Shown in pieces: positions 1,041 to 63,828 of a DNA stretch of 64,000 bases. The notes beneath the pieces are model-generated. The model was not told the origin of the DNA and did not search any database. It saw nothing but the letters and a program-made list of their open reading frames with translations. Origin of the DNA: Eurosta solidaginis (taxonomy: Eukaryota > Arthropoda > Insecta > Diptera > Tephritidae); the NCBI RefSeq assembly GCF_040869045.1, contig NC_090319.1:237205832-237269831 (forward strand), read 5' to 3'. The translations under genes were made by a program, and so were the position numbers. Numbering within the stretch: the stretch's first letter is position 1; every line of letters begins with the position of its first letter.

Positions 1041-4000
1041 CAAGTAAGGAAGGTTAAGTTCGGGGGTAACCGAACATTACATACTCAGTTGAGAGCTATG
1101 GTGACAACATAAGGGAAAATAACCATGTAGGAAAATGAACCGAGGGAAACCCTGGAATGTGTTTGTATGACATGTATATCAAACGAAAGGCATTAAAGAG
1201 TATTTTATGAGGGAGTGGGTCATAGTTCTATAGGTGGACGCCATTTAGGGATATAGCCATAAAGGTGGATCAGGGTTGACTCTAGAATGCGTTTGTACGA
1301 TATGGGTATCAAATTAAAGGTATTAATGAGGGTTTTAAAAGGGAGTGGTGGTTGTTGTATAGGTGGTCGCCTTTTCGAGATATCGCCATAAAGGTGGACC
1401 AGGGGTGACTCTAGAATGCGTTTGTACGATATGGGTATCAAATGAAAGGTGTTAATGAGTATTTTAAAAGGGAGTAATCCTTAGTTCCATAGGTGTACGC
1501 CGTTTCGAGATATCGCCATAAAGGTGGACCAGGGGTGACCCTAGAATTTGTTTGTTCAATATGGGTATCAAAAGAAAGGTGTTAATAAGTATTTTAAAAG
1601 GGAGTAATCCTTAGTCCCATAGGTGGACGCCGTTTCGAGATATCGCCATAAAGGTGGACCAGGGGTGACCCTAGAATTTGTTTGTACAATATGGGCATCA
1701 AACGAAAGGTGGTAATGAGTATTTTAAAAGGGAGTGGGCCTTAGTTCTATAGGTGGACGCTTTTTCGAGGTATCGCATTAAAGGTGGACCAGGGGTGACT
1801 CTAGACTTTGTTAGTACGAAATGGGTATCAAATGAAAGGTGTTAATGAGTATTTTTAAAAGGGAGTTGGCCTTCGTTCTATAGGTGTTCGCCCTTTCGAG
1901 ATATCGCCATAAAGGTGGACCAGGGGTGACTTTAGAATATGTTTGTACGATATGGGTATCAAATGAAAGGTGTTAATGGGTATTTTAAAAGGGAGTGGGC
2001 CTTAGTTCTATAGGTGGACGCCGTTTCGAAATATCGCCATAAAGGTGGACCGGGGTGACTCTAGAATGTGTTTGTACGATATGGGTATCAAATTAAAGGT
2101 ATTAATGAGGGTTTTAAAAGGGAGTGGTGGTTGTTGTATAGGTGGTCGCATTTTCGAAATATCGCCATAAAGGTGGACCAGGGGTGACTCTAGAATTTGT
2201 TTGTACAATATGGGTATCAAAAGAAAGGTGTTATTGAGTATTTTAAAAGGGAGTAATCCTTAGTTCCATAGGTCGCCGTTTCGAGATATCGCCATAAAAG
2301 TAGGCCAGGGGTGACTCTAGAATTCGTTTGTGCAATATGGGTATCAAACGAAAGGAGTTAATGAGTATTTTAAAAGGGAGTGGGCCTTAGTTCTATAGGT
2401 GGGCGCCTTTTCGAAGTATCGCATTAAAGGTGGACAAGAGGTGACTCTAGACTTTGTTAGTACGAAATGGGTATCAAATGAAAGGTGTTAATGAGCATTT
2501 TTAAAAGGGAGTGGGCCTTCGTTCTATAGGTGTTCGCCCTTTCGAGATATCGCCATAAAGGTGGACCAGGGGTGACCCTAGAATTTGTTTGTTCAATATT
2601 GGCATCAAACGAAAGGTGGTAATGAGTATTTTAAAAGGGAGTGGGCCTTAGTTCTATAGGTGGACGCCGTTTCGAAATATCGCCATAAAGGTGGACCAGG
2701 GGTGACTCTAGAATGTGTTTGTACGATATGGGTATCAAATTAAAGGTATTAATGAGGGTTTTAAAAGGGAGTGGTGGTTGTTTTATAGGTGGTCGCATTT
2801 CCGAAATATCGCCATAAAGGTGGACCAGGGGTGACTCTAGAATTTGTTTGTACAATATGGCTATCAAAAGAAAGGTTTTAATGAGTATTTTAAAAGGGAG
2901 TAATCCTTAGTCCCATAGGTGGACGCCGTTTCGAGATATCGCCATAAAGGTGGGCCAGCGGTGACTCTAGAGTTCGTTTGTGCAATATGGGTATCAAACG
3001 AAAGGAGTTAATGAGTATTTTAAAAGGGAGTGGGCCTTAGTTCTATAGGTGGACGCCTTTTCCAGGTATCGAAATAAAGGTGGGCCAGGGGTGACTCTAG
3101 ACTTTGTTAGTACGATATGGGTATCAAATGAAAGGTGTTAATGAGTATTTTTAAAAGGAAGTGGGCCTTCGTTCTATAGGTGTTCGCCTTTTCGAGATAT
3201 CGCCATAAAGGTGGACCAGGGGTGACTCTAGAATTTGTTTGTACAATATGGGTATCAAAAGAAAGGTGTTATTGAGTATTTTAAAAGGGAGTAATCCTTA
3301 GTTCCATAGGTGGACGCCGTTTCGAGATGTCGCCATAAAAGTAGGCCAGGGGTGACTCTAGAATTCGTTTGTGCAATATGGGTATCAAACGAAAGGAGTT
3401 AATGAGTATTTTAAAAGGGAGTGGGCCTTAGTTCTATAGGTGGACGCCTTTTCGAAGTATCGCATTAAAGGTGGACCAGGGGTGACTCTAGACTTTGTTA
3501 GTACGAAATGGGTATCAAATGAAAGGTGTTAATGAGTATTTTTAAAAGGAAGTGGGCCTTCGTTCTATAGGTGTTCGCCCTTTCGAGATATGGCCATAAA
3601 GGTGGACCAGGGGTGACCCTAGAATTTGTTTGTACAATATGGGCATCAAACGAAAGGTGGTAATGAGTATTTTAAAAGGGAGTGGGACTTAGTTCTATAG
3701 GTGGACGCTGTTTCGAAATATCGCCATAAAGGTGGACCAGGGGTGACTCTAGAATGTGTTTGTACGATATGGGTATCAAATTAAAGGTATTAATGAAGGT
3801 TTTAAAAGAGAGTGGTGGTTGTTTTATAGGTGGTCGCATTTTCGAAATATCGCCATAAAGGTGGACCAGGGGTGACTCTAGAATTTGCTTGTACAATAAG
3901 GCAATCAAAAGAAAGGTTTTAATGAGTATTTTAAAAGGGAGTAATCCTTAGTCCCATAGGTGGACGCCGTTTCGAGATATCGCCATAAAGGTGGGCCAGC

Positions 4001-7000
4001 GGTGACTCTAGAATTCGTTTGTGCAATATGGGTATCAAACGAAAGGAGTTAATGAGTATTTTAAAAGGGAGTGGGCCTTAGTTCTATAGGCGGACGCCTT
4101 TTTGAGGTATCGCAATAAAGGTGGACCAGGGGTGACTCTAGACTTTGTTAGTACGATATGGATATCAAATGAAAGGTGTTAATGAGTATTTTTAAAAGGG
4201 AGTAGGCCTTCGTTCATTAGGTGTTCGCCTTTTAGAGATATCGCCATAAAGGTGGACCAGGGGTGACTTTAGAATATGTTTGTACGATATGGGTATCAAA
4301 TGAAAGGTGTTAATGAGTATTTTAAAAGGGAGTGGGCCTTAGTTCTATAGGCGGACGCCGTTTCGAAATATCGCCATAAAGGTGGACCAGGGGTGACTCT
4401 AGAATGTGTTTGTACGATATGGGTATCAAATTAAAGGTATTAATGAGGGTTTTAAAAGGGAGTGGTGGTTGTTGTATAGGTGGTCGCATTTTCGAAATAT
4501 CGCCATAAAGGTGGACCAGGGGTGACTCTAGAATTTGTTTGTACAATATGGGTATCAAAAGAAAGGTGTTAGTGAGTATTTTAAAAGGGAGTAATCCTTA
4601 GTTCCATAGGTGGACGCCGTTTCGAGATATCGCCATAAAGGTGGGCCAGGGGTGAATCTGGAATTCGTTTGTGCAATATGGGAATCAAACGAAAAGAGTT
4701 AATGAGTATTTTAAAAGGGAGTGGGCCTTAGTTCTATAGATATACGCCTTTTCGAGGTATCGCATTAAAGGTGGACCAGGGGTGACTCTAGACTTTGTTA
4801 GTACGAAATGGGTATCAAATGAAGGGTGTTAATGAGTATTTTTAAAAGGGAGTGGGCCTTCGTTCTATAGGTGTTCGCCCTTTCGAGATATCGCCATAAA
4901 GGTAGACCAGGTGTGACTCTAGAATTCGTTTGTGCAATATGGGTATCAAACGAAAGGAGTTAATGAGTATTTTAAAAGGGAGTGGGCCTTCGTTCTATAG
5001 GTGGGCGCCTTTTCGAAGTATCGCATTAAAGGTGGACCAGGGGTGATTCTAGACTTTGTTAGTACGAAATGGGTATCAAATGAAAGGTGTTAATGAGTAT
5101 TTTTAAAAGGGAGTGGGCCTTCGTTATATAGGTGTTCGCCCTTTCGAGATATCGCCATAAAGGTGGACCAGGGGTGACCCTAGAATTTGTTTGTACAATA
5201 TGGGCATCAAACGAAAGGTGGTAATGAGTATTTTAAAAGGGAGTGGGCCTTAGTTCTATAGGTGGACGCCGTTTCGAAATATCGCCATAAAGGTGGACCA
5301 GGGGTGACTGTAGAATGTGTTTGTACGATATGGGTATCAAATTAAAGGTATTAATGAGGGTTTTAAAAGGGAGTGGTGGTTGTTATATAGGTGGTCGCAA
5401 TTTTCGAAATATCGCCATAAAGGTGGACCAGGGGTGACTCTAGAATTTGTTTGTACAATATGGCTATCAAAAGAAAGGTTTTAATGAGTATTTTAAAAGG
5501 GAGTAATCCTTAGTCCCAAAGGTGGACGCCGTTTCGAGATATCGCCATAAAGGTGGGCCAGCGGTGACTCTAGAATTCGTTTGTGCAATATGGGTATCAA
5601 ACGAAAGGAGTTAATGAGTATTTTAAAAGGGAGTGGGCCTTAGTTCTATAGGTGGACGCCTTTTCCAGGTATCGTAATAAAGGTGGGCCAGGGGTGACTC
5701 TAGACTTTGTTAGTACGAAATGGGTATCAAATGAAAGGTGTTAATGAGTATTTTTAAAAGGGAGTGGGCCTTCGTTCTATAGGTGTTCGCCCTTTCGAGA
5801 TATCGCCATAAAGGTGGACCAGGGGTGACCCTAGAATTTGTTTGTACAATATGGGCATCAAACGAAAGGTGGTAATGAGTATTTTAAAAGGGAGTGGGCC
5901 TTAGTTCTATAGGTGGACGCTGTTTCGAAATATCGCCATAAAGGTGGACCAGGGGTGACTCTAGAATGTGTTTGTACGATATGGGTATCAAATTAAAGGT
6001 ATTAATGAGGGTTTTAAAAGGGAGTGGTGGTTGTTTTATAGGTGGTCGCATTTTCGAAATATCGCCATAAAGGTGGACCAGGGGTGACTCTAGAATTTGT
6101 TTGTACAATATGGGTATCAAACGAAAGGAGTTAATGAGTATTTTAAAAGGGAGTGGGCCTTAGTTCTATAGGTGGGCGCCTTTTCGAGATATCGCCATAA
6201 AGGTGGACCACGGGTGACTCTAGAATTTGTTTGTACAATATGGCTATCAAAAGAAAGGTTTTAATGAGTATTTTAAAAGGGAGTAATCCTTAGTCCCAAA
6301 GGTGGACGCCGTTTCGAGATATCGCCATAAAGGTGGGCCAGCGGTGACTCTAGAATTCGTTTGTGCAATATGGGTATCAAACGAAAGGAGTTAATGAGTA
6401 TTTTAAAAGGGAGTGGGCCTTAGTTCTATAGGTGGAGGACGCCTTTTCCAGGTATCGCAATAAAGGTGGGCCAGGGGTGACTCTAGACTTTGTTAGTACG
6501 AAATTGGTATCAAATGAAAGGTGTTAATGAGTATTTTTAAAAGGAAGTGGGCCTTCGTTCTATAGGTGGTCGCATTTCCGAAATATCGCCATAAAGGTGG
6601 ACCAGGGGTGACTCTAGAATTTGTTTGTACAATATGGGTATCAAACGAAAGGAGTTAATGAGTATTTTAAAAGGGAGTGGGCCTTAGTTCTATAGGTGGG
6701 CGCCTTTTCGAGATATCGCCATAAAGATGGACCAGGGGTGACTCTAGAATGAGTTTGTACGATATGGGTATCAAATTAAAGGTATTAATGAGAGTTTTAA
6801 AAGGGAGTGGTGGTAGTTGTATATGTGAAGGCGTTTTCCAGATATCGACCAAAATGTGGATCAGGGTGACCCAGAACATCATCTGTTGGATACCGCTAAT
6901 TTATTTATATGTGTAATATCTGCCAAGATTTTAAGAGTTTTTTATTTCGCCTTGCAGAACTTTTTCATTTTCTTCTACTTAATATGGTAGGTGTCACAAC

Positions 7001-8255: not shown

Positions 8256-9223
8256 CACTTGGTCGGGAACAATACTTAATCGCGAATTATTTTCTTGGTT
8301 AGCTCTGTGGGAAAGTTGTTGTTTTCCAAGATCTTTTTAATAATTATAATATTTTTCTCATAGTAGATATTGGCGCTGATGGACAAAACTCGTCTGACAA
8401 AATTATAAGCCGTGTTCAAAATAAGTTCTTTTTTATGTTGTGAGTAGAAATTTATGAGCTTCCTCCAGGCTGTTGGTTTTTGGTACCAATCTATGGTTAA
8501 GAAATTATTCCTCCTGATGGCCAAAGTATCAGAGAATGGCATTTTCCCGTTTTTTTCTATTTCTACTGTGAAATTAATGGATCTCTGAGATATATTGAGT
8601 GTATTCAGCATTATCTTCGTATCTTCCGTTCTTATTATAACGAATACGTCGTCCACATATTTTGTTAGTAATCGTGGTTTGTTAACCGATTCATTCTCAT
8701 ATCTGGTTAACAGTTCTTCCATCACGATATCCGCTATGACAGGTGAAGCTGGTAGTCTCATTGGGATTCCTGACCGTTGCTCGTATATTTTATCCGTGTA
8801 CTTAAAATATCGGTTTTCCTTGATACAAAACTTAACAATGGTCAAGAATAGTTCTTTTGCCATGGAAGTGTGTTCTTTTATCTGGTCCTATTTGCAATCT
8901 ATTATATCAAGGGCCAAATCTACTGGGATACTGGGAAAGAAGGAAACAACTTCGAACGAGACTAAACACTCATCATCATACACATAGGTATCCTTAATCC
9001 TTTTCTTGAAGTCTGTCGCGTCTTTTACATTACACTTGGATTCCCGCGTTAGATTTTTTAAAATTTGGACAACGAATCTACACAGACTTTAAGATGGAGA
9101 ATTGACAGACAAGCGAATAGGTCTAAGCTGAATGTCCGCCTTAGGGATTTTGGGCAGCCCATAAGTTCTGTGCGGGTTTGCTGTTTTACAATTAAGAAGG
9201 AAATTTTCTTTTATCCATCCAAA
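8256..9223 (-). mobile_element. Penelope-like element copy 1, reverse transcriptase region
   Basis: Translation on the minus strand is a PLE reverse transcriptase. A 195-codon frame (8863-8276) contains GIPMRLPASP at residues 32-41, SPVIADIVMEE just after, and the catalytic YVDD at 69-72. Upstream on the same strand (9061-8864) the frame continues with a DDECLVSFE segment and a single in-frame stop at 8888-8890, where copy 2 has a tryptophan codon. The frame is ended by the DNA transposon at 8255; the element resumes at 129. PLE RTs act in the nucleus on a nicked target. This copy is dead, although its RT core is well preserved. It is head-to-head with copy 2, with the axis near 9223. Confidence 0.85.
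8276..8863 (-). pseudogene. PLE reverse transcriptase core, truncated by a transposon
   Basis: This 195-residue frame is the longest intact stretch of PLE coding sequence in the window. The conserved glycine before the SPVIADIVMEE motif reads as MR and not the usual MG, a change in a normally invariant position. YVDD is intact. The C-terminal residues diverge after NNNFPTEL because the inserted element begins there. The true protein would continue upstream, so the first methionine is internal and not a real start. Confidence 0.8.
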
Positions 9224-10480
9224 TCCATCGACCTAAAAGAAAAGTTCCGCCTTAATTGTAAAACAGCAAACCAGCCCAGAATTTATGGGCTGCCCAAAAT
9301 CCACAAGGCAGACATTCCGCTTAGACCTATTTGTTCGTCTGTCAATTCTCCGTCCTACAGTCTGTGTAAATTCGTTGCCCAAACTTTAAAAAATCTAACG
9401 CGGGAATCCAAGTATAATGTAAAAGACGCGACAGACTTCAAGAAAGGGATAAAGGATACTTATGTGTATGATGATGAGTGTTTAGTGTCGTTCGATGTTG
9501 TTTCCTTGTTTTCCAGTATCCCAGTAGATTTGGAGCTCGATATAATAGATTCCAAATGGGTCCAGATAAAAGACACACGTCCATGACAAAAGAATTTTCT
9601 TGACCATTTTTAAGTTCTGTATCAAGGAAAACCGATATTTTAAGTTCAAGGCAAAATATACGAGCAACGTCAGGAATGCCAATGGGATTACCAGCTTCAC
9701 CTGTAATACCGGATATCGTGATGGAAGAACTGTTAACCAAATTTGAGACTGAATCGGTTAACAAACCACGATTACTAACAAAATATGTGGACGACGTATT
9801 CGTTATAATAAGAACGGAAGATACGAACATAATGCTGAATACACTCATTATAAGTATATCACAGATCCATTAAATTCACAGTAGAAATAGAAAAAGACGG
9901 GAAAATACCATTTTTGTATACATTGGTCATCAGGAAGAATAATGTCTTAACCATAGATTGGTACTAAAAACCAACTGCCTCGGGGAAGCTCATAAATTTC
10001 TACTCACAACATGAAAAACGACCTATTTTGAACAGGGCTAATAATTTTGTCTGACGAGTTTTGTCCATCAGCGACAATATCTACCATGAGAAAAACGTTA
10101 TAATTATTAAAAAGATCTTGGAAATCAACAACTTTCCCACAACAACTATTCCCGACCCATTGATGGCGTTGATAAAGAAGCTAAAAATTTCAAGATATAC
10201 AAGTCTGCAACATATGTCTCCCGAGATTATCAGAGATAATAAGATATTCGAACATGTATGATAAAGAAAACGTGCAGTTAGCTTTCACCTATGACAACAC
10301 ACTACTGAAAACTTTCAGCAACCTAAAATATAAAATTTCAACACATGACAAATCGGGCATTGTATACAAGATTCCTTGCAATGGTGAAGGGACCCACACT
10401 CTAAAACTTTTGTGTGAAATTAAGATTAAAATGGAGATAAATTCCTGTCGAAATAATTTTTTGGTGTAAAAATGCCCATT
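9224..10480 (+). mobile_element. Penelope-like element copy 2 (RT to start of GIY-YIG), frameshifted
   Basis: The plus-strand arm has RPICSSVNSPSYSLCKF and CLVSFDVVSLFSSIPVD near 9330-9530, MGLPASPVIPDIVMEELL near 9678-9735, and YVDDVFVII near 9783-9810. Near 10340-10380 it has SGIVYKIPC, the opening of the GIY-YIG endonuclease domain typical of PLEs. The frames are separated by shifts and stops, so no full protein can be made. The endonuclease is cut off after about 10440. Copy 2 still has the tryptophan that is a stop in copy 1. Divergence from copy 1 looks near 10% by eye, so this palindrome is not a recent duplication. Confidence 0.85.
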
Positions 10481-17170: not shown

Positions 17171-19770
17171 CAAGTAAGGAAGGTTAAGTTCGGGTGTAAC
17201 CGAACATTACATACTCAGTTGAGAGCTATGGTGGCAACATAAGGGAAAATAACCATGTAGGAAAATGAACCGAGGGTAACCCCGGAATGTGTTTGTATGA
17301 CATGTGTATCAAATGAAAGGTATTAAAGAGTATTTTAAGAGGGAGTGGGCTATAGTTCTATAGGTGGACGTCATTTAGGGATATCGCCATAAAGTTGGAT
17401 CAGGGTTGACTCTAGAATTTGTTTGTACGATATGGGTATCAAATGAAAGGTGTTAATGAGTATTTTAAAAGGGAGTGATTCTTATTTCCATAGGTGGACG
17501 CCGTTTCGTGATATTGCCAGAAAGGGGACCAGGGGTGACTCTAGAATGCGTTTGTACAATATGGGTGTCAAACGAAAGGTATTAATGAGTATTTTAAGAG
17601 GGCGTGGGCCCCAGTTCTATATGTGGACGCCTTTTCGAGATATCGCCATAAAGGTGGAACAGGGGTGACTCTACAATTTGTTTGTACTATATGGCTATCA
17701 AATGAAAGGTGTTAATGAGTATTTTAAAAGGGAGTGGGCCTTAGTTCTATAGGTGGACGCCTTTTCGGAATATCGTTATAAAAGTGGTTCAGGGTTGACT
17801 CTAGAATGCGTTTGTACAATATGGGTATCAAACGAAAGGTGTTAATAAGTGTTTTAAAAGGGAGTGGGCCTTAGTTCTATTGGTGGACGCCTTTTCGGGA
17901 TATCGCCATAAACGTGGACCAGGGGTGACTCTAGAATGCGTTTGTATAATATGGGTGTCAAATGAAAGGTGTTAATGAGTATTTTAAAAGGACGTGGGCC
18001 TTAGTTCTATAGGTGGACGCCTTTTCGAGATATCGCCATAAAGGTGGACCAGGGGTGACTCTAGAATTTGTTTGTACGATATGGGTATCAAATGAAAGGT
18101 GGTAATGAGTATTTAAAAGGGCGTGGGCCTTAGTTCTATAGGTGGACGCCTTTTCGAGATATCGCCATAAAGGTGGACCAGGGGTGACTCTAGAATTTGT
18201 TTGTACGATATGGGTATCAAATGAAAGGTGTTAATGAGTATTTTAAAAAGGAGTGGGCCTTAGTTCTATATGTGGACGCCTTTTCGAGATATCGCCATAA
18301 ACGTTGACCAGGGGTGACTCTAGAATGTGTTTGTACGATATGGGTATCAAATTAAAGGTATTAATGAGGGTTTTAAAAGGGAGTGGCCCTTAGTTGTATA
18401 TGTGAAGGAGTTTTGGAGATATCGACCAAAATGTGGACCAGGGTGATCCAGAACTTCATCTGTCGGCTACCGCTAATTTATTTATATATGTAATACCACG
18501 AACAGTATTCTTTCCAAGATTCCAAGGGCTTTTGATTTCGCCCTGCAAAACTTTTTCATCTTCTTCTACTTAATATGGTAGGTGTCACACCCATTTTACC
18601 AAGTTTTTTTCTAAAGTTATATTTTGCGTCAATAGACCAATACAATTACCATGTTTCATCCCTTTTTTCGTATTTGGTATATAATTATGGCATTTTTTAT
18701 TTTTCGTAATATTGGATATCGAAAAAGTGGGCGTGGTCATAGTCGGATTTCGGCCCTTTTTAACACCAATACAAAGTGAGTTCAGATAAATACGTGAACC
18801 GAGTTTAGTAAAGATATATCGATTTTTGCTCAAGTTATCGTGTTAAAGGCCGAGCGGAAGGAAAGACGGTCGACTGTGTATAAAAACTGGGCGCGGCTTC
18901 AACCGATTTCGCCCTTTTTTACACAAAACAGTTATCGTCCTAGAATCTAAGCCTCTACCAAATTTCACAAGGATTGGTAAATTTTTGTTCGACTTATGGC
19001 ATTAAAAGTATCTTAGAGAAATTAAATGAAAAAGGGCGGAGCCACGCCCATTTTGAAATTTTCTTTTATTTTTGTATTTTGTTGCACCATATCATTACTG
19101 GAGATGAATGTTGGCATAATTTACTTATATACTTTAAAGATATTAACTTTTCTTTTAAAATTTGAATTAAAAAAAAAAAATTTTTTAAAAGTGTGCGTGG
19201 TCGTTCTCCGATTTTGCAAATTTTTAGTAAGCAGACATATAGTAATAAGGGTAACGTTCCTGCCAAATTTCATCATGATATCTTCAACGACCGCCAAATA
19301 ACAGCTTGCAAAACTTCTAAATTACCTTCTTTTAAAAGTGGGCGGTGCTACGCCCATTGTCCAATTTTTACTATTTTTCTATTCTGCGTCATATGTTCAA
19401 CTAACTTTCTTTCATCGCTTAATCCGTATTTGGTAATGAATTATCGCACTTTTTCGATTTGTCGAAATTTTCGATATCGAAAAAGTGGGCGTGGTTATTG
19501 TCCGATATAGTTCATTTTAAACAGCGATCTGAGATGAATTCCCAGGAACCTACATACCAAATTTCATCAAGATACCTCAAAATTTACTCAAGTTATCGTG
19601 TTAACGGACAGACGGACGGACGGACATGGCTCAATCGAATTTTTTTTCGATACTGATGATTTTAATATATGGAAGTCTATATCTATCTCGATTCCTTTAC
19701 ACCTGTACAACCAACCGTTATCCAATCAAAGTTAATATACTCTGTGAGCTCTGCTCAACTGAGTATAAAA
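17171..19770 (-). mobile_element. INE-1/DINE-1-like element C
   Basis: Full-length member: CAAGTAAGGAAGG start, GTTCGG/CCGAAC hairpin, nine 130-bp monomers (17341-18470), conserved GGGCGTGG blocks, GACGGACGGACGGACATGGC and the CTCAACTGAGTATAAAA end. The layout is the same as element A without the higher-order expansion. No protein is encoded; frames such as those at 18974-19510 fall in the conserved non-coding block. Confidence 0.75.
17300..18470 (-). repeat. 130-bp tandem repeats of INE-like element C (about nine)
   Basis: GGGAGTGGG-type monomer starts recur near 17341, 17471, 17600, 17730, 17860, 17990, 18119, 18249 and 18380. The monomers lack the five-type order of the 1220-6860 array. 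Confidence 0.85.
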
Positions 19771-30751: not shown

Positions 30752-32458
30752 CCAGTAAGGAAGGCTTAGTTCGGGTGCAACCGAACATTATATACTCAGC
30801 TGAGAGCTTTGGAGACAAAATAAGGGAAAATTACCATGTAGGAAAAGGAACTTGGGTAGCCCTGGAATGTGTTTGCATGACATGGGTATCAAATGGAAGG
30901 TATTAAAGAGTATTTTAGAAAGGAGTGGGCCATAGTTATATAGGTGGACGCCTTTTCGAGAAACTGCCATAAAGGTGGACCAGGGGTGACCCTAGAATGA
31001 GTTTGTACGATACGGGTATCAAATGAAAGGAGCTAATTAGTATTTTAAAAGGAATTGGACCTTAGTTCTATAGGTGGACGCCTTTTCGAGATATCGCCAT
31101 AAAGGTGGACCAGGGGTGAGTCTAGAATGTGTATGTACGATATGGGTATCAAATTAAAGGTATTAATGAGGGTATTGAAAGGGAGTGGGCCTTAGTTGTA
31201 TATGTGAAGGCGTTTTCTAGATATCGACCAAAATGTGGACCAGGGTGACCCAGTACATCATCTGTCGGGTACCGCTAATTTATTTATATATTTAATACCA
31301 CAAACCGTATTCCTGCCATGATTCCAAGGGCTTTAGATTCAGCCCTGCAGAAGTTTTTCAAATTCTTCTACTTAATATGGTAGGTGTCACACCTATTTTA
31401 CAAAGTTTTTTCTAAAGTTATATTTTGCGTCAAAAAACCAATCCAGTCACTATTTTTCATCCCTTTTTTCGTATTTGGTATAGAATTATGCCATTTTTTT
31501 TTCATTTTTTGAAATTTTAGATATCGAAAAAGTGGGCGTGGTCATAGTCGGATTTCGCTCATTTTTAATGCCAATATAAGGTGAGTTCAGGTAATTTCGT
31601 GAACTAATTTTAGTAAAGATATATCGACTTTTGCTCCAGTTATCTTGTTAACGGCAGAGCGGAAGGACAGACGGTTGACTGTGTATAAAAACTGGGCATA
31701 GGTTCAACCGATTTCACCCATTTTCACAAAAAACAGTTATCGTCATGTAAGCTATGCCCCTACCAAATTTCACAAGGATTGGTAAATTTTTGTTCGACTT
31801 ATAGTATTAAAAGTATTCTAGGCAAATTAAATGAAAATGGGCGGAGCCACGCCCATTTTGAAATTTTCTTTTATTTTTATATTTTGTTGCACCATATCAT
31901 TACTGGAGTTGAATGTTGACATAATTTACTTATGTACTGTAAAGATTTTAAATCTTTTGTTAAAATTTGACTTTTAAATATTTTTTTTTATAGTGCTTCC
32001 TGCCAAATTTCATCATGATATCAACTGCCAAATTTCAGCTTGCAAAACTTTTAATTACCTTCTTTTAAAAGTGGGCGCTGCCACGCCCATTTTCCAAAAT
32101 TTTACAAATTTTATATTCTGCGTCATAATTTCAACCCACCTACCAAGTTTCATCGCTTTATCCGTCTTTGGTAATGAATTATCGCACTTTTTCGGTTTTT
32201 CGAAATTTTCGATATCAAAAAAGTGGGCGTGGTTATAGTCCAATTTTGTTCATTTTATATAGCGATCTGAGATTAGTTCCCAGGAACTTACATACCAAAT
32301 TTCATTAAGATAAGTCAAAATTTACTCAAGTTATAGTGTTTACGGTCGGACGGACGGTCATGGCTGAAATGAATGAATTTCTTTTATGCCGTTACGGGGT
32401 ACTGTTATGCGAACAAAATTAATATACTCTGTGAGCTCTGCTCAGCTGATTATAAAAA
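30752..32458 (-). mobile_element. INE-1/DINE-1-like element D
   Basis: Complete but short member with about two to three 130-bp monomers (30840-31220). It has the hairpin near the CAGTAAGGAAGG end, the GGGCGTGG blocks and a variant ACGG microsatellite (TCGGACGGACGG). Its terminal block reads TTATGCCGTTACGGGGTACT and not the TATATGGAAGTC block. Element G shares this terminus, so D and G form a subfamily. Confidence 0.75.
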
Positions 32459-35327: not shown

Positions 35328-38184
35328 CAAGTAAAGAAAGCTAAGTTCGGGTGTAACCGAACATTATATACTCAGTTGAGAGCTGTGGAGACAAAGTAAG
35401 GGAAATCACCATGTTGTAAAAGGAACCTAGGGTAACCCTGGAATGTGTTTGTATGACATGTGTATCAAATGGAAGGTATTAAAGAGTATTTTAAGAGGAA
35501 GTGGGCCATAGATCTATAGATGGACGCCATTTAGGGATATCGCCATAAAGGTGGACCAGGCCTGACTCGAGAATTTGTTTGTACGATATGGGTATCAAAT
35601 GAAATGTGTTAATGATAATTTTAAAAGGGAGTGGGCCTAAGTTCTATAGGTGGACGTCTTTTCGAGATATCGCCATAAAGGTGGACCAGGGGTGACTCTA
35701 GAATTTATTTTGTACGATATGGGTATCAAATAAAAGGTATTAATGAGTATTTTAAAAGAGCGTTGGCCTAAGTTCTATAGATGGACACCTTTTCGAGATA
35801 TCTCCATAAAGATGGACCAGGGGTGACTCTACAATTTGTTTGTACGATATGGGTATCAAATGAAAGGTGTTAATGAGTATTTAAAAGGGCGTGGGCCTTA
35901 GTTCTATAGGTGGATGCCTTTTCGAGATATCGACATAAAGGTGGACCAGGGGTGACTCTAGAATTTGTTTATACGATATGGGTATCAAATGAAAGGTGTT
36001 AATGAATATTTTAAAAGGGAGTGGGCCTTAGTTCTATAGGTGGATGCCTTTTCGAGATATCGCCATAAAGGTGGGCCAGGGGTGACTCTAGAATTTTTTT
36101 GTACGATATGGGTATCAAATGAAAGGTGTTAATGAGTATTTAAAAGGGCGTGGGCCTTAGTTCTATAGGTGGATGCCTTTTCGAGATATCGCCATAAAGG
36201 TGGGCCAGGGGTGACTCTAGAATTTATTTTGTACGATATGGGTATCAAATAAAAGGTGTTAATGAGTATTTTAAAAAGGCGTGGGCCTTAGTTCTATAGG
36301 TGGACGCCTTTTCGAGATATCGACATAAAGGTGGACCAGGGGTGACTCTAGAATTTGTTTGTACGATATGGGTATCAAATGAAAGGTGTTAATGAGTATT
36401 TAAAAGGGCGTGGGCCTTAGTTTTATAGGTGGATGCCTTTTCGAGATATCGCCATAAAGGTGGGCCAGGGGTGACTCTAGAATTTATTTTGTACGATATG
36501 GGTATCAAATAAAAGGTGTTAATGAGTATTTTAAAAAGGCGTGGGCCTTAGTTCTATAGGTGGACGGCTTTTCGAGATATCGACATAAAGGTGGACCAGG
36601 GGTGACTCTAGAATTTGTTTGTACGATATGGGTATCAAATGAAAGGTGTTAATGAGTATTTTAAAAAGAAGTGGGCCTTAGTTCTATATGTGAACGCCTT
36701 TTCGAGATATCGCCATAAACGTGGACCAGGGCTGACTCTAGAATGTGTTTGTACGATATGGGTGTCAAATTAAAGGTATTAATGAGGGTTTTAAAAGGGA
36801 GTGGCCCTTAGTTGTATATGTGAAGGCGTTTTCGATATATCTACCAAAATGTGGACCAGGGTGATCCAGAACATCATCTGTCGGGTACCGCTAGTTTATT
36901 TATATATGTAATACCACGTACAGTATTCCTTCCAAGATTCCAAGAGCTTTTGATTTCGACCTGCAAAACTTTTTCTTACTTAATATTGTAGGTGTCACAC
37001 CCATTTTTCCAAGTTTTTTTCTAAAGTTATATTTTGCGTCAATATACCAATACAATTACCATGTTTCATCCATTTTTTCGTATTTGGTATATAATTATGG
37101 CATTTTTTTCATTTTTCGTAATTTTCGATATGGAAAAAGTGGACGTGGTCATAGTCGGATTTCGGCAATTTTTTATGCCAATACAAAGTGAGTTCAGGTA
37201 AGTACGTGAACTGAGTTTAGTAAAGATATATCGATGTTTGCTCAAGTTATCGTGTTAACGGCCGAGCGGAAGGACAGACGGTCGACTGTGTATAAAAACT
37301 GGGCGTGGCTTCAACCGATTTCGCCCTTTTTCACAGAAAACAGTTACCGTCCTAGAAGCTAAGCCTCTACCAAATGTCACAAGGATTGGTTAATTTTTGT
37401 TCGACTTATGGCATTACAAGCATCCTAGACAAATTAAATGAAAAAGGGCGGAGCCCCGCCCATTTTGAAATTTTCTTTTATTTTTGTATTTTGTTGCAGC
37501 ATATCATTGCTGGAGTTGAATGTTGGCATAATTTACTTATATGCTGTAAAGATATTAACTTTTCTTTTAAAATTTGAATTTAAAAAAAATTTTTTTTAAA
37601 AAGTGGGCGTGGTCGTTCTCCGATTTTCCTAATTTTTATTGAGCAGACATAAAGTAATAAGAGTAACGTTCCTGCCAAATTTCATCATGATATCTTCAAC
37701 GACTGCCAAATTATAGCTTGCAAAACTTCTAAATTACCTTCATTTAAAAGTGGGCGTTGCCACGCCCATTGTCCAAAATTTTACTAGTTTTCTATTCTGC
37801 GTCATAAGCTCAACTCACCTACCAAGTCTCATCGCTTAATGCGTATTTGGTAATCAATTATCGCACTTTTTCGATTTTTCGAAATTTTCGATATCGAAAA
37901 AGTGGGCGTGGTTATTGTCCGATATCGTTCATTTTAAACAGCGATCTGAGATGAGTGCCCAGGAACCTACGTACCAAATTTCATCAAGATACCTCAAAAT
38001 TTACTCAAGTTATCGTGTTAACGGACGGACGGACGGACATGGCTAAATCGATTTTTTTTTCGATACTGATGATTTTGATATATGGAAGTCTATATCTATC
38101 TCGATTCCTTTATACCTGTACAACCAACCGTTATGCAATCAAAGTTAATATACTCTGTGTGCTCTGCTCAACTGAGTATAAAAA
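35328..38184 (-). mobile_element. INE-1/DINE-1-like element E
   Basis: Full-length member with about eleven 130-bp monomers (35420-36880), the hairpin near the CAAGTAAAGAAAG end, the conserved GGGCGTGG blocks, GGACGGACGGACGGACATGG and the CTCAACTGAGTATAAAAA terminus. Within the array, adjacent monomer pairs repeat almost exactly (around 36070-36330 and 36330-36590), which points to a recent local duplication of a two-monomer block. A tRNA-like sequence begins directly at its end. Confidence 0.75.
35420..36880 (-). repeat. 130-bp tandem repeats of INE-like element E (about eleven)
   Basis: GTGGGCCTTAGTTCTATAGG marks each monomer, at spacings near 130 bp. Alternation of TTTATTTTGTACG and TTTGTTTGTACG variants shows a two-monomer higher-order unit from about 36070 to 36600. 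Confidence 0.85.
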
Positions 38185-57135: not shown

Positions 57136-58769
57136 CAAGTAAGGAAGTCTAAGTTCGGGTGTAACCGAACATTACATACTCAGCTGAGAGCTTTGGAGAC
57201 AAAATAAGGGAAAATCGCCATTTAGCAAAATGAACCTAGGGTAACCCTGGAATGTGTTTGTATGACATGTATATCAAATGAAAGGTGTTAATGATTATTT
57301 AAAACGTAGTGGGCCTTAGTTCTATAGGTGCACGCCTTTTCGAGATATCGCAATAAGGGGGCCAGGGGTGACTCTAGAATGTGTTTGTACGATATCGGTA
57401 ACAAATTAAAGGTATTAATGAGGGTTTTAAAAGGCAGTAACCTTTAGTTGTATATGTGAAGGCCTTTTCGAGATATCGACCAAAATGTGGACCAGGGTGA
57501 CCCGGAACATCTTCTATCGGTTACCGCTAATTTATTTATATATATATATCATACCACGAACAGTATTCCTGCCAAGGGCTTTTGATTTCGCCCTGCAGAG
57601 CTTTTTCATTTTCTTCTACTTAATATGGTAGGTGTCACACCCATTTTACAAAGTTTTCTCTAAAGTTATATTTTGCGTCAATAAACCAATCCAATTCATA
57701 TTTGGTACAGCATTATGGCATTTTTTTCATTTTATGGCCGAGCGGAAGGACAGAGGTCGACTGTGTATAAAAACTGGGCGTGGCTTCAACCGAGTTCGCC
57801 CATTTTCACAGAAAATAGTTATCGTCATAGAATCTATGTCCCTACCAAATTTCACAAGGATTGGTAAATTTTTGTTCGACTTATGGCATTAAAAGTATTC
57901 TAGACGAATTAAATGAAAAAGGGCGGAGTTACGGCCATTTTGAAATTTTCTTTTATCTTTGTATTTTGTTGCACTATATCATTACTGGAGTCGAATGTTG
58001 ACATAATTTACTTTTATACTGTAAAGATATTAAATTAATTTGTTAAAATTTTACTTAAAAAAATTTTGTTTAAAAGTGGGCGTGTTCGTCATCCGATTCC
58101 GCTAATTTTTATTTAACACACATATAGTAATAGGAGTAACGTGTATACCAAATTTCATCATGATATCTTCAATGACCAAATTAAAGCTTGCAACACTTTT
58201 AGATTACCTTCTTTTAAAAGTGGGCGGTGCCACGCCCATTGTCCAAAATTTTTCTAATTTTCTATTTTGCGTCATAAGGTCAACGCACCTACCAAGTGTC
58301 ATCGCTTTATCCGTCTTTGGTAATGAATTATCGCACATTTTCAGTTTTTCGAAATTTTCGATATCGAAAAAGTGGGCGTGGTTGTAGTCCGATTTCGTTC
58401 ATTTTAAATAATGATCTGAGATGAGCACCAAGGAACCTACATACCAAATTTTATCAAGATACCTCAAAATTTACTCAATGTATTATGTTTACAGACGGAC
58501 GGACAGACGGACATGGCTAAATGAATTTCTTTTTTCACCCAGATCATTTTGATATATAGAAGACTATATCTATCTCGATTAGTTTATGCCGTTACGGACA
58601 AGGCGACAGCTGTTTCGATTATACCTTGTAAATCTCTTCAAAGCCTTTTCTCCCGGGAGTGGGATTCGAACTCGCACTCCTACGATAGTTGAAATGGTGG
58701 TAAACGCATTCAGCTACGTCATGCCTGTTGTAAAGTTCTTCCCAATTGCCTTCTTTTTGCTCCCGGGAG

Positions 58770-58821
58770 AAAAGGCTTTGAAGAGATTTACAAGGTATAA
58801 TCGAAACAGCTGTCGCCTTGT
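58770..58821 (+). ncRNA. Possible degenerate hammerhead in the 447-bp unit
   Basis: In order: AAGGC (stem I), TTGAAGA (core; consensus CUGANGA, so C3 is changed, with one extra T before it), GATT..AATC (stem II), GAAA, CAGCTG (short palindromic stem III), TC (cleavage site), GCCTT (stem I partner). All three stems are in the right topology, but the C3 change and extra base argue against activity. It is repeated at 59217, 59664 and 60111. This is a suggestion only. Confidence 0.25.
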
Positions 58822-59140
58822 CCGTCCTGATGTCACGTTGTTTAAATTTTTCCCAAATTATTAAATAAATTATAAAATAAAAAAATTGCTCCAAATAAAT
58901 GTTTTCATACATTTGAAAAAGCAATATGGGCAATCCCCGATTATTAAAATCATACAAACAGACAAAATTGGTTAATTCGTTGTAGTTCTATAAATAGAAC
59001 GAAAACAGCAACAAAAACCAAAGTTTCTTTGAAAACCGCCGTACCAAGCATAGCTTTAACACATAATTGCATACGAAGTATGCAATGTGTAAAAGATTAA
59101 AATATGCAAAAAGAAGGCAATTGGGAAGAACTTTACAACA

Positions 59141-59215
59141 GGCATGACGTAGCTGAATGCGTTTACAACCATTTCAACTATCGTAGCAGTGCGAGTTCGA
59201 ATCCCACTCCCGGGA
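59141..59215 (+). other. tRNA-like head in the 447-bp unit
   Basis: Box-A-like TGACGTAGCTG (59145-59155) and a full box B, GAGTTCGAATCCC (59193-59205), are about 48 bp apart. The same pair is at +447 and +894, and inverted at about 58658-58720. The T arm pairs partly; no closed acceptor stem was found. This suggests a tRNA-derived SINE-type internal promoter. Confidence 0.55.
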
Positions 59216-60357
59216 GAAAAGGCTTTGAAGAGATTTACAAGGTATAATCGAAACAGCTGTCGCCTTGTCCGTCCTGATGTCACGTTGTTTAAATTTTTCC
59301 CAAATTATTAAATAAATTATAAAATTAAAAAATTGCTCCAAATAAATGTTTTCATACATTTGAAAAAGCAATATGGGCAATCCCCGATTATTAAAATCAT
59401 ACAAACAGACAAAATTGGTTAATTCGTTGTAGTTCTATAAATAAAACGAAAACAGCAACAAAAACCAAAGTTTCTTTGAAAACCGCCGTACCAAGCATAG
59501 CTTTAACACATAATTGCATACGAAGTATGCAATGTGTAAAAGATTAAAATATGCAAAAAGAAGGCAATTGGGAAGAACTTTACAACAGGCATGACGTAGC
59601 TGAATGCGTTTACAACCATTTCAACTATCGTAGGAGTGCGAGTTCGAATCCCACTCCTGGGAGAAAAGGCTTTGAAGAGATTTACAAGGTATAATCGAAA
59701 CAGCTGTCGCCTTGTCCGTCCTGATGTCACGTTGTTTAAATTTTTCCCAAATTATTAAATAAATTATAAAATTAAAAAATTGCTCCAAATAAATGTTTTC
59801 ATACATTTGAAAAAGCAATATGGGCAATCCACGATTATTAAAATCATACAAACAGACAAAATTGGTTAATTCGTTGTAGTTCTATAAATAGAACGAAAAC
59901 AGCAACAAAAACCAAAGTTTCTTTGAAAACCGCCGTACCAAGCATAGCTTTAACACATAATTGCATACGAAGTATGCAATGTGTAAAAGATTAAAATATG
60001 CAAAAAGAAGGCAATTGGGAAGAACTTTACAACAGGCATGACGTAGCTGAATGCGTTTACAACCATTTCAACTATCGTAGGAGTGCGAGTTCGAATCCCA
60101 CTCCCGGGAGAAAAGGCTTTGAAGAGATTTACAAGGTATAATCGAAACAGCTGTCGCCTTGTCCGTCCTGATGTCACGTTGTTTAAATTTTTCCCAAATT
60201 ATTAAATAAATTATAAAATTAAAAAATTGCTCCAAATAAATGTTTTCATACATTTGAAAAAGCAATATGGGCAATCCCCGATTATTAAAATCGTTACGGA
60301 TTACCGTTATGCGAACAAAGTTAATATACTCTGTGAGCTCTGCTCAGCTGAGTATAA

Positions 60358-61383
60358 TTAAGGGAGTGGCAAGTGCACTTAATATAAAACAAATTAGTCT
60401 CATGCTTTAGTTTGGTTTTCAATTCAAAAATGGCTTCATCAATGGCATACAACGTCAAATTTCTTTGAGTTCCACGTGCAACAACTTTTTTAAGCTCAAT
60501 TATTAACAAAAATGTATCACGAAAAGTGTTTGATAACGGTTCGAAATATCTACAAAACGAGATTTACTGAAAATTCTTTCTAAATTATCTGCTAGGTAAA
60601 GTGCCATTGTTCTGTTACATTTTGATGACATCAATTTTTTCATAAGAAATCCTTTGAGGTAAATTGAAATTTACATAAAATTTAATGAAGGTGTGGAACA
60701 TTTTGTGGGAATTGTTGTACATTTTTACCTCATTGAAAAAAAAAAGCACGAAAGTATCAAAATCTTGATTACAGCCTAAAAAGACCAAAATTGGAAAAAA
60801 ACGGACCAGAGGACAAAATGGGGTTGGAAAGTACCATTTATAGTCCAAATGGATCAAAGTGGCAACCGTTGGATAAGCAGTTATGGACATATACATATAT
60901 ATGCATATACATATGTATATGTATAGGCAGGTAGATATGCATAATGGCAAAGTGTACATTAGATCGTTTTGAAATTATAAACTGCGCTGTCAGAAAATAA
61001 TCAGTTTATGTTAACTAAGCTCGACCACATCGTAATTTTAATATTTTTAAAGGAAATACATAAATACACACGGCCTTTTCCATAGTAATTCACAACAGGT
61101 TGAACTGGCCGGTCAATAAAGGCTTCGCATAAACCGAATATGACCATAGTGTTGGTAACTCGCTTTACATAAGAAACAAAATTTTACTAGTTAAAATCAC
61201 TTTTTGTTCTATACTTAACATTTGCAAAAAAATGCGCTATCGTCCCATCCAACTATATAATAGCTGTTAAAAATGCCCAGCTTTTTTTAAATGAGTCAAT
61301 TAATTAAATGAAATAAGTTAAGTCACTCCTGTTATGATTTCTAAAGAAGAGTTTTCGTAGCGTTAACTAATTTTAAATAATAT
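60358..61383. other. Spacer with a TATACATA microsatellite
   Basis: A run of ATATACATATATATGCATAT-type repeat lies at 60889-60930. The minus frame at 60509-60321 (62 codons) has no recognised domain. No gene is supported. Confidence 0.35.
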
Positions 61384-61978: not shown

Positions 61979-62011
61979 TTTTGAATAAATTCTGGAGATT
62001 TCGAATACAAC

Positions 62012-62944
62012 TTGGACATGGCAAAGTTAAGTGAATTGAGGATCCAGCAACTGAAGAAGGAGTTGGGGAGCCGTGGATTGAATAAAACCGGCAATAAACT
62101 CGAACTTCAGGCACGGCTACGAGTTGTATTGGAGTTGGAAGTAATTAATGTGGACGAGTATGTCTTTTATCCTGATATGGAAGAGCCAGGGACTAAAATG
62201 GAAGAGAAGGTAGAGACTCCGAATCCATTGGCAAGTTTTGACACTAAAGCGATACTAGCATTGTTGAAGCAAATGTCGGCACAAATATCAACCGAAATGT
62301 CATCTCAACTAGAATCGCAGGAGAAACGTATAACATCCAATATGGAAGAACAGAAGACACGTATTGCAGAAATGTCGTCAGAAATATCATTAGAAATAAC
62401 ATCGAAGGTTGAGGCACAAGAAACGCGTATTTCAGAAACGTCGTCACAAATATCATCCCAACTGGAATCACAGGAGACGCGTATCTCAGAGATGTCGTCA
62501 GAAATAACATCTAAAATTGAAACACAAAAGGCACGTATATCAGAAATGTCGGCACAAATTTCAGCACAGTTATCATCGCAGATCTCTGCACAACTGGAAG
62601 CCCGTATGGACGAAAAAATTGTACAACTCGAGGAAAAAATTGATGCCGAGATAGAAGCGTTAAAAGGTCGTATGGAGCAGTTAAAACTAAAACGCCCAGC
62701 TGTGCCAGCGAGCAATCCGAAGGTAAAAATTCCATCTTTTGATGGCTCCGTTCCTTTCCAGGTATTAAAGCTTCAATTTGAGAAGACGTCAGCAGTGAAC
62801 AACTGGAATACTGAAGATAAAGTTGCTGCACTGTTCGTAGCAATGAAAAGGCCTGCAACTGAAATTTTACAGACTATTCCAGAGTGCGAACGGAACAGTT
62901 ATGAAGCATTGATGGCCGCTGTCGAGAGACGTTATGGAAGCTAG
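62012..62944 (+). CDS. Gag polyprotein with N-terminal SAP domain, truncated by a stop
   Basis: 310 residues. Residues 4-40 (LSELRIQQLKKELGSRGLNK) form a SAP domain, a DNA-binding helix-turn-helix known from nuclear proteins and some retroelement Gags. Residues 75-215 are a long coiled coil made of near-repeats of ISEMSSQISSQLESQETR type, about 20 residues each. Residues 230-310 (KIPSFDGSVPFQVLKLQFEK, ending in ALMAAVERRYGS) match the capsid region of Ty3/gypsy Gag. The frame ends at a TAG where related Gags continue; the downstream bases still read as capsid in the same and then a shifted frame. Gag would form the particle that holds the RNA. The start is the first ATG after the leader, 53 bp downstream of the PBS start. 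Confidence 0.75.
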   Translation: MDMAKLSELRIQQLKKELGSRGLNKTGNKLELQARLRVVLELEVINVDEYVFYPDMEEPGTKMEEKVETPNPLASFDTKAILALLKQMSAQISTEMSSQLESQEKRITSNMEEQKTRIAEMSSEISLEITSKVEAQETRISETSSQISSQLESQETRISEMSSEITSKIETQKARISEMSAQISAQLSSQISAQLEARMDEKIVQLEEKIDAEIEALKGRMEQLKLKRPAVPASNPKVKIPSFDGSVPFQVLKLQFEKTSAVNNWNTEDKVAALFVAMKRPATEILQTIPECERNSYEALMAAVERRYGS

Positions 62945-63378
62945 CACAGGAAATAGATATATCAAATAGAATTGCAAAATTGTTGCCAAAAAGCTAATGA
63001 GGCTTTGCAAGAGTTTGCTTCGGATGTTGAACGATTGGCTCATTTGGTAAATGAGCACGCACCCGTGGAGTACACCGAGAGGGTAAAAAAATTCAGTGTT
63101 TTATAAATGGAATACGGTACGTAGAAATGAAGCGAGCGGCATATGCAAACCCAAAACCCGCATTCGCAGAAACGGTATCCCATGCACTGACTCAGGAAAC
63201 AGCGTCGCTTCTCTGTAAGTTTTCAAAGCACACCGTGTAGAAGTGGAAAGGCCGACTGGGTGAACACAATATTGGAGGAGCTGAATGGATCACAACAGAA
63301 AAATGACGGAGTTATGAAGTGTTTCAAGTGCGGTAACCCAGGTCAGATTGCTCGTAATTGCAGAACCGGTCCTGGTAG
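62945..63378 (+). pseudogene. Gag C-terminus with zinc knuckle, frameshifted
   Basis: After the TAG at 62942 the frame has another early stop but still reads EALQEFASDVERLAHLV (from about 62997). It then shifts near 63085 to FINGIRYVEMKRAAYANPKP, then a stop near 63238 and another shift. At 63320-63361 is CFKCGNPGQIARNC, a CCHC knuckle in which the histidine is replaced by glutamine (63344-63346). A lone knuckle without its histidine should bind zinc and RNA poorly. At least three lesions lie in 300 bp. Confidence 0.7.
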
Positions 63379-63828
63379 TTGCAGCATGGTCTTAATAACA
63401 AAGCTGGAGGGGATGAGCAAGAGCGAGTAAAGTGTAGAGATCGAGAGCTAGCTCCAGCTTTTGAATGTCCTGTGATATCTGTGTCCCAAATTGGAAGGAA
63501 ATCAAGCAGTCTTACCGTCAGAGGGAATGTGGATGGCAAAGAACGTGTACTGACTGTAGATACGGGCGCATCTCATTCCTTAATCCGATCTGCTTTGGTC
63601 AATAGGAGAGAAAAGCCATTACCTGGAACAAGGTTGCGTACGGTCACTGCCGAGTATAACCAAGTCCAAAAAGAAGTGATCTGCAAAGTCTTAATTGGGA
63701 AGGTCATGGTTCTAAACAAATTCATTGTGGCGGAGATTGTTGAAGAAGTCATATTGGAAGTGGACTTCTTAGTTGACCATGACATCAGGATCGACATGCA
63801 AAGAAGGAATATGCGCTACAAGAACTAG
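63379..63828 (+). CDS. Retrotransposon aspartic protease region
   Basis: 149 residues in an open frame. The catalytic DTGAS lies at 61-65 (LTVDTGASHSLIR). A second hydrophobic ILEVDFL near residues 124-130 takes the place of the usual ILGxDFL, with the glycine changed to glutamate. This protease cleaves Gag-Pol as a dimer. The frame stops at 63828; polymerase would follow in the next region, and no RT motif is reached before 64000. The start codon is not meaningful, as the protease is normally made as part of Gag-Pol. Confidence 0.7.
   Translation: MQHGLNNKAGGDEQERVKCRDRELAPAFECPVISVSQIGRKSSSLTVRGNVDGKERVLTVDTGASHSLIRSALVNRREKPLPGTRLRTVTAEYNQVQKEVICKVLIGKVMVLNKFIVAEIVEEVILEVDFLVDHDIRIDMQRRNMRYKN

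Follow-up and report, generated by a model that had tools for sequence, protein, structure and literature searches.

It is not yet settled how Penelope-like elements (PLEs) insert, or by which enzyme non-coding tandem elements are mobilised in animals. The purified PLE of Anolis (PAc) is reported to cleave and extend both target strands, to prefer AT-rich DNA and to start at two adjacent internal sites of its RNA, the genomic 'tail' being the stretch between these two start sites; the two strands are reported to show no difference in start site in vitro (PMC11167929). In the rotifer Adineta vaga, a Pen element was described that is preceded by an inverted repeat copy and has a duplication of 9 bp and, on one inverted end, a tail of 31 bp, and a host gene is reported to have been moved in trans between PLE repeats (PMC3846280). 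For metazoan (non-LTR) retrozymes, which are defined by a type I hammerhead, mobilisation by PLEs has been proposed, PLEs being presented as a strong candidate and no more, and the available part of the account holds no mapping of ends (PMC7229834).

The 447-bp repeat described here was noticed in a 64-kb window (the whole stretch of DNA that was analysed) of the Eurosta solidaginis genome. It looks like a parasite of the Penelope copying machinery, since it codes for no protein and the ends of its arrays carry the Penelope insertion signature. As far as the available accounts of PAc and Pen go, it shares with these PLEs the tandem and head-to-head layout, the inverted partial copy, the short duplications, the AT-rich targets, the two adjacent internal sites (putative start sites in the unit) and an optional tail on one inverted end; it differs from them in having neither an ORF for reverse transcriptase (RT) or endonuclease nor a confirmed hammerhead, and in the length of the tail (~82 nt in the unit vs ~30–40 nt in PLEs). 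It resembles retrozymes in being made of short, low-GC, non-coding tandem units beside PLEs, although the type I hammerhead is unconfirmed in it (PMC7229834). The short nonautonomous Penelope elements of Heliconiine butterflies are also a non-autonomous PLE class in insects, but multimeric structure or start sites are absent from the available part of their account, unlike what is found in the 447-bp family (PMC6685494). Non-autonomous PLEs and ribozyme tandem repeats are already known kinds; the 447-bp family and a strict one-site-per-strand rule appear to be new in the literature searched (subscription papers lying mostly outside it), where no recognised description of either was found.

The Window Locus

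The direct array at 58760–60292 (Table 1) has a period of exactly 447 bp, 3.4 copies and 99% matches, its full units differing pairwise at 3–4 of 447 positions, and an inverted piece of 167 nt in front of it (58594–58760) is 99% complementary to three later stretches; the presence of both parts, noted in the original prediction, is confirmed. It had also proposed an 8-bp target duplication, which is present on both sides (CGTTACGG at 58590 and at 60292) and becomes 9 bp (CGTTACGGA) with the next A. The array was rightly placed inside an INE-like element, the left part of which is 84–87% identical to other stretches in the window, where several other copies of this host repeat occur. The joined flanks of the array align across the junction with six of these copies; five of the six have diverged at the insertion site itself, and the closest one, at 32390, carries CGTTACGG once only. 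Because the array lies inside a multi-copy repeat, its flanks align with other copies and the closest of them has the target word once, it is one insertion with a target duplication. An assembly error is judged unlikely, as every one of the 37 genomic stretches that were fetched likewise holds an array of the unit.

The tRNA head and the pol III A/B boxes that had been proposed for the unit found no support: ARAGORN gave no tRNA in the window, Rfam gave none at E ≤ 10 over 58400–60500, and the best pair of boxes was no better than those of shuffled sequences, 53 of 300 of which scored as high or higher. These results speak neither for a tRNA head or pol III promoter nor for a tRNA-derived SINE, and this reading was set aside.

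Table 1. Positions of the features of the 447-bp array and its surroundings within the window.
Feature	Position	Strand	Detail
Left copy of target duplication CGTTACGGA	58590..58598	.	
Inverted arm	58594..58759	-	Outer start at unit 61–66, 5–6 bp target overlap; inner end at unit ~347
Forward arm, tandem array of 3.43 447-bp units	58760..60291	+	Unit position 1 = CTCCCGGGAG
10-bp palindrome CTCCCGGGAG	58760..58769	.	Junction between the two arms
Site A, unit 1	58857..58876	+	ATTATTAAA (unit 98–106) plus family end range 103–117
Site B, unit 1	58940..58962	+	ATTATTAAA (unit 181–189) plus family end range 188–203
Site B serving as 3' end of the window insertion	60280..60291	+	Unit 191
Right copy of target duplication CGTTACGGA	60292..60300	.	
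Host INE-like repeat, left part examined	57901..58589	+	
Host INE-like repeat, right end	60303..60357	+	

A Dispersed Family of Tandem Arrays

The genome of E. solidaginis (1.908 Gb, 569 contigs) was searched with one 447-bp unit, which gave at least 254 matches. Scores were obtained for 39 of the 1419 candidates, and 37 stretches were fetched, two of which (L030 and L031) overlap. These are the best-scoring loci and not a random sample, and the search is biased towards sites where a full unit is present. Arrays of the unit were present in all 37 stretches and in the window (38 rows). A locus has ~2–18 units, or 19 where L030 and L031 are counted together, and single arms can be as short as a fraction of a unit. 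Most units are 96–99% identical to the query and ~446–451 bp long, some being deleted. The 447-bp family is thus a dispersed family and the window array one insertion of it. Several loci with variable copy number, short duplications and often an inverted partial copy had been forecast, and this holds at the fetched loci; no single-unit copy, and hence none without a duplication, was found among them by this search biased to full units.

Tandem copies accompanied by a head-to-head inverted copy, a mark of PLE integration, are seen in that all 38 rows are tandem and that 16 loci, the window included, have the head-to-head layout. The longest open stretch in a unit dimer has 86 codons and there is no long ORF; an ORF with RT and GIY-YIG endonuclease, by which an autonomous PLE is recognised, is absent, so the element would be at most a non-autonomous PLE. 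At L030/L031, two unit arrays are separated by 998 bp made up of a different, imperfect repeat of the TTTCGGGATC type. One pattern searched for in public viral contigs was not found there.

Two End Sites, Each Used Once in Resolved Head-to-Head Insertions

Target duplications were found by script and the last base of the element was then mapped on the unit. Of 51 outer 3' ends mapped in this way, 47 fall in unit 103–117 (site A) or 188–203 (site B), ranges that were picked after the ends were seen and that together make up 7% of the unit. The ends outside them are those of L029 (95), L036 (305), L044 (421) and the left end of the window copy (61), and the 51 do not include L045 (unresolved), the left end of L019 or the right end of L030 (both cut by the fetch). 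Sites A and B are at or just 3' of CCC-N2-ATTATTAAA, which occurs twice per unit, 83 nt apart, the distance from A to B being ~82 nt. The 5' ends of the arrays are scattered, and a few junctions have extra bases (L013 and L025, 17–19 nt). What was observed at A and B is ends, which would mark the starts of reverse transcription. The window copy is atypical in that its right end is at B, its left end is at unit 61–66 with a microhomology of 5–6 bases to the target, and site A is unused as an end.

Duplications of at least 9 bp were found in 24 of the 38 rows (up to 18 bp, five with one mismatch), as raw counts without a random control; the remaining rows share a 7-bp word only (4/38) or none (10/38). 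Most duplications are 9–17 bp, and the 19 exact ones are 84% AT vs 63% in the flanks, which corresponds to the short AT-rich target duplications of PLE integration. The TRIM with a tRNA-like LTR known as Helenus has a duplication of 4–5 bp (PMC10886601), and an LTR/TRIM reading of the 447-bp family was rejected because of this wrong duplication length.

Twelve of the 16 head-to-head loci are resolved, in that both outer ends lie at A or B and a duplication of 12–17 bp is present (with one mismatch at two loci): L016, L017, L020, L021, L023, L024, L026, L032, L033, L038, L040, and L042. All twelve have one A end and one B end. The other head-to-head loci are the window, with its one end at 61; L019, which is nested and cut; and two loci at which no duplication was found, namely L030/L031, where 998 bp separate the arms, and L044, the right end of which is at 421. 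Single-arm insertions, counted without L036, L045, and L031, end at A in 11 cases (including L029 at 95) and at B in 8, and from these figures the chance of 12/12 A + B under independent choice is about 2e-4. Two adjacent sites with a tail on one end, a further mark of PLE integration, are therefore present here as observed ends (12/12 insertions and 47/51 ends). As regards the inner ends, 18 orientation switches were listed, and an arm ends at the palindrome CTCCCGGGAG (unit position 1) in the window, L016, L021, L026, and L033, a count that comes without a chance estimate and concerns a position that is also the edge of the query. The palindrome is possibly a point at which the polymerase stalls, or else the end of an RNA.

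Ordinary satellite DNA, moved by excision of circular DNA and reintegration, would also produce tandem units, homogeneity within arrays and the signs of later unequal exchange seen in L044, but it predicts scattered break points where nearly all outer 3' ends were found at two sites, and the target duplications (24/38 rows) together with the paired orientation speak against it; such an origin is hardly credible.

Penelope-Like Elements of the Same Genome

PLE-type RT genes are abundant in E. solidaginis (at least 150 matches scored of 13,014 candidates), and several matches have open frames of 854–868 codons. Some copies are in tandem and head to head, as in C6, where five minus copies are followed by two plus copies with a spacing of 3111 bp. 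The regions around the ORF start were compared in three families (L046, L047, and L048). Twenty excerpts were taken where 3' ends were predicted for the L048 family: in 6 the end is at ORF -38 to -27 and in 10 at +1 to +13, 2 have no match and 2 run to the edge of the excerpt. Thirteen head-to-head PLE pairs were examined, and all 11 that could be resolved have ends at ATG -41 to -25 and at ATG -3 to +12, the two sites being 24–46 nt apart (11 pairs), closer together than A and B of the unit (~82 nt); the remaining two are C1:120.3 (no match) and C2:114.6 (the left side runs on). The flanks of the resolved pairs have words of 9–15 bp in common, compared with a mean of 6.8 in 110 mismatched flank pairings, 10 of them with at least 9 bp and one with at least 13 bp. 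Since PLE pairs likewise end once at each of two sites, PLEs and the gene-less 447-bp unit would thus follow one rule.

The unit has no convincing homology to the three sampled families, with which it shares just short AT-rich words and a 9-mer, and so points to none of them as its helper PLE. L048 was considered and rejected as the helper: CAAATTATTAAA and ATTATTAAAAT, which it has in common with the stretches at sites A and B, are at about +121 in its ORF, whereas its mapped ends are at ORF -38 to +13. The upstream end site of L048 follows ATTATTATTAAC, like the ATTATTAAA of the unit, a likeness too short to be decisive. For a C-terminal piece of a PLE (L089), Pfam gave no GIY-YIG match, the PDB sequence search was empty, and a structure model (mean pLDDT 65) had no Foldseek match at E ≤ 0.001; in an alignment of 14 relatives, GIY-YIG is matched by one of them at 1.4e-4, and Y-x-I-x-C..C..Y-V/I-G..R..H can be seen as a conserved pattern.

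Twin-primed L1/SINE insertions join an inverted 5' segment to a forward 3' segment, as unit insertions do, and LINE insertions too can be inverted or truncated at the 5' end, lie in AT-rich targets and have duplications of similar length, all features seen in the insertions of the unit. The element could on this basis be regarded as SINE-like, copied by LINE machinery, with inverted arms that come from ordinary L1-type twin priming. LINE reverse transcription, however, normally starts at one RNA 3' end, and twin-primed L1/SINE insertions have this single RNA 3' end, a monomeric template and no paired fixed start sites; the unit has two fixed internal sites, paired in 12/12 resolved cases, and its arms pass through several whole units at many loci. 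A pol III promoter is without support, and PLEs of the same genome give the same pattern, in a comparison limited to PLE families. Copying by LINE machinery is accordingly considered very improbable.

Two further observations concern the PLEs themselves. A distant PLE (RT ~31% identical) with a 381-codon open stretch is present at 3818–5299 of L021, ~0.5 kb beyond the array. Hammerhead-like CTGANGA-stem-GAAA motifs, found by eye and missed by the descriptor, occur upstream of PLE ORFs (~449 in L046, ~86 in L047, and ~62 in L048), and in all three they come after splice-acceptor-like TTACAG/TTGCAG.

A Probable Common Template for Both Arms

Sequence variants were compared between the arms of 14 head-to-head loci, L019 and L030/L031 being left out. 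At least one common departure from the family sequence was found in 10 of the 14 loci vs 7 of 182 mismatched-locus pairings, from which it follows that one template probably made both arms of an insertion. In 8/14 loci a variant common to both arms is the majority at no other locus; the common variants of L033 and L044 are subfamily variants, and 4/14 loci have no common departure. The mean divergence of the arms is 0.56% within an insertion vs 1.10% between loci. The arms of L040 have five common variants and 0/446 differences, and L032 is the exception, with arms that differ at 12/381 positions.

In arrays that have at least four full units, the majority of polymorphic sites affect a single unit (25/27 in L034, which has 17 units, 8/8 in L028, and 8/8 in L036). 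Many variants are common among the units of L019, which has two unit types, and of L044, which has patterns of later unequal exchange, and some are common in L030/L031, L033, and others. At 6/35 loci all units carry a variant that occurs at no other locus, and 71/301 single-unit changes recur at other loci. The simplest reading of these patterns would be a unit-length template copied round repeatedly; the alternative is a long RNA transcribed from a homogeneous array.

A Model for Insertion

Taken together, these sequence comparisons make it likely that the 447-bp element is a non-autonomous PLE-type retroelement that inserts by reverse transcription of one RNA, probably a circle, from two sites. 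A non-autonomous element inserting as a multimer with PLE-like behaviour had been suggested originally, and the results support it; the use of PLE enzymes is inferred from the insertion signatures that the family and PLEs have in common. In the proposed model, a PLE RT-endonuclease, possibly a pair of them, would bind the unit RNA and nick both strands of an AT-rich target, and the two 3' ends thus set free would prime cDNA at different internal start sites (A and B) on a single RNA. This template, presumed to be circular (or else multimeric), would then be copied round several times to give tandem arms, and the two cDNA arms would be joined head to head by repair; where just one arm formed or survived, a single 5'-truncated array would result. 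The window copy would have used site B on one side and microhomology at unit 61–66 on the other.

The 447-bp arrays may in this way show in detail how PLE machinery inserts DNA. They suggest a sharper rule than the published one, namely that a head-to-head insertion uses each start site once, on opposite target strands and from one template. This one-each rule can be tested in a PLE protein assay, for which the family supplies a small non-coding RNA, a few hundred bases long, that bears two start sites. Additionally, paired ends at two fixed sites may serve as a simple sign of PLE-mobilised 'satellites' in other genomes. A wider proposal, which we would put at slightly less than an even chance, is that a paired PLE complex holds one RNA and obligatorily primes each strand at a different site, that gene-less circular RNAs with two such sites spread as ready-made tandem arrays in this manner, and that a class of dispersed 'satellites' arises when PLE enzymes reverse-transcribe RNA circles in a rolling fashion.

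A metazoan retrozyme, that is, a hammerhead-processed circular RNA mobilised by PLEs, in which the ribozyme has diverged or escaped recognition, would be a special case of the PLE-type reading, so that the odds of the two overlap. The size, low GC and tandem layout match those given in the available description of retrozymes, the authors of which name PLEs as the likely helper (PMC7229834). The unit also has a hammerhead-like layout at ~10–65 that was matched or beaten in 2 of 1000 shuffles, with a descriptor written post hoc, but its core has U in place of the invariant C3 plus an extra base. Rfam gave no hammerhead at E ≤ 10, which leaves this degenerate layout as the sole trace of the type I hammerhead of retrozymes, and the minimum-energy fold of the unit is no better than those of shuffles. 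A strict descriptor gave no intact hammerheads in 645,474 bases of examined DNA (both strands counted). A retrozyme origin is therefore regarded as rather unlikely, and the preferred reading is still that of a non-autonomous PLE-type element.

Other Repeats in the Window

A PLE fragment forms a 1.84-kb inverted repeat at 8306–10141 of the window, its arms being 90% identical. Arrays of a ~130-bp repeat (TTTGTACRATATGGGTATCAAATGAAAGG...) occupy 1155–6870, 17285–18443, and 35430–36861, near copies of the host repeat. The ORFs at 61985–63828 have a SAP domain above the Pfam cut-off and weak matches to retroviral-type aspartyl protease below it, and this stretch is possibly an LTR element.
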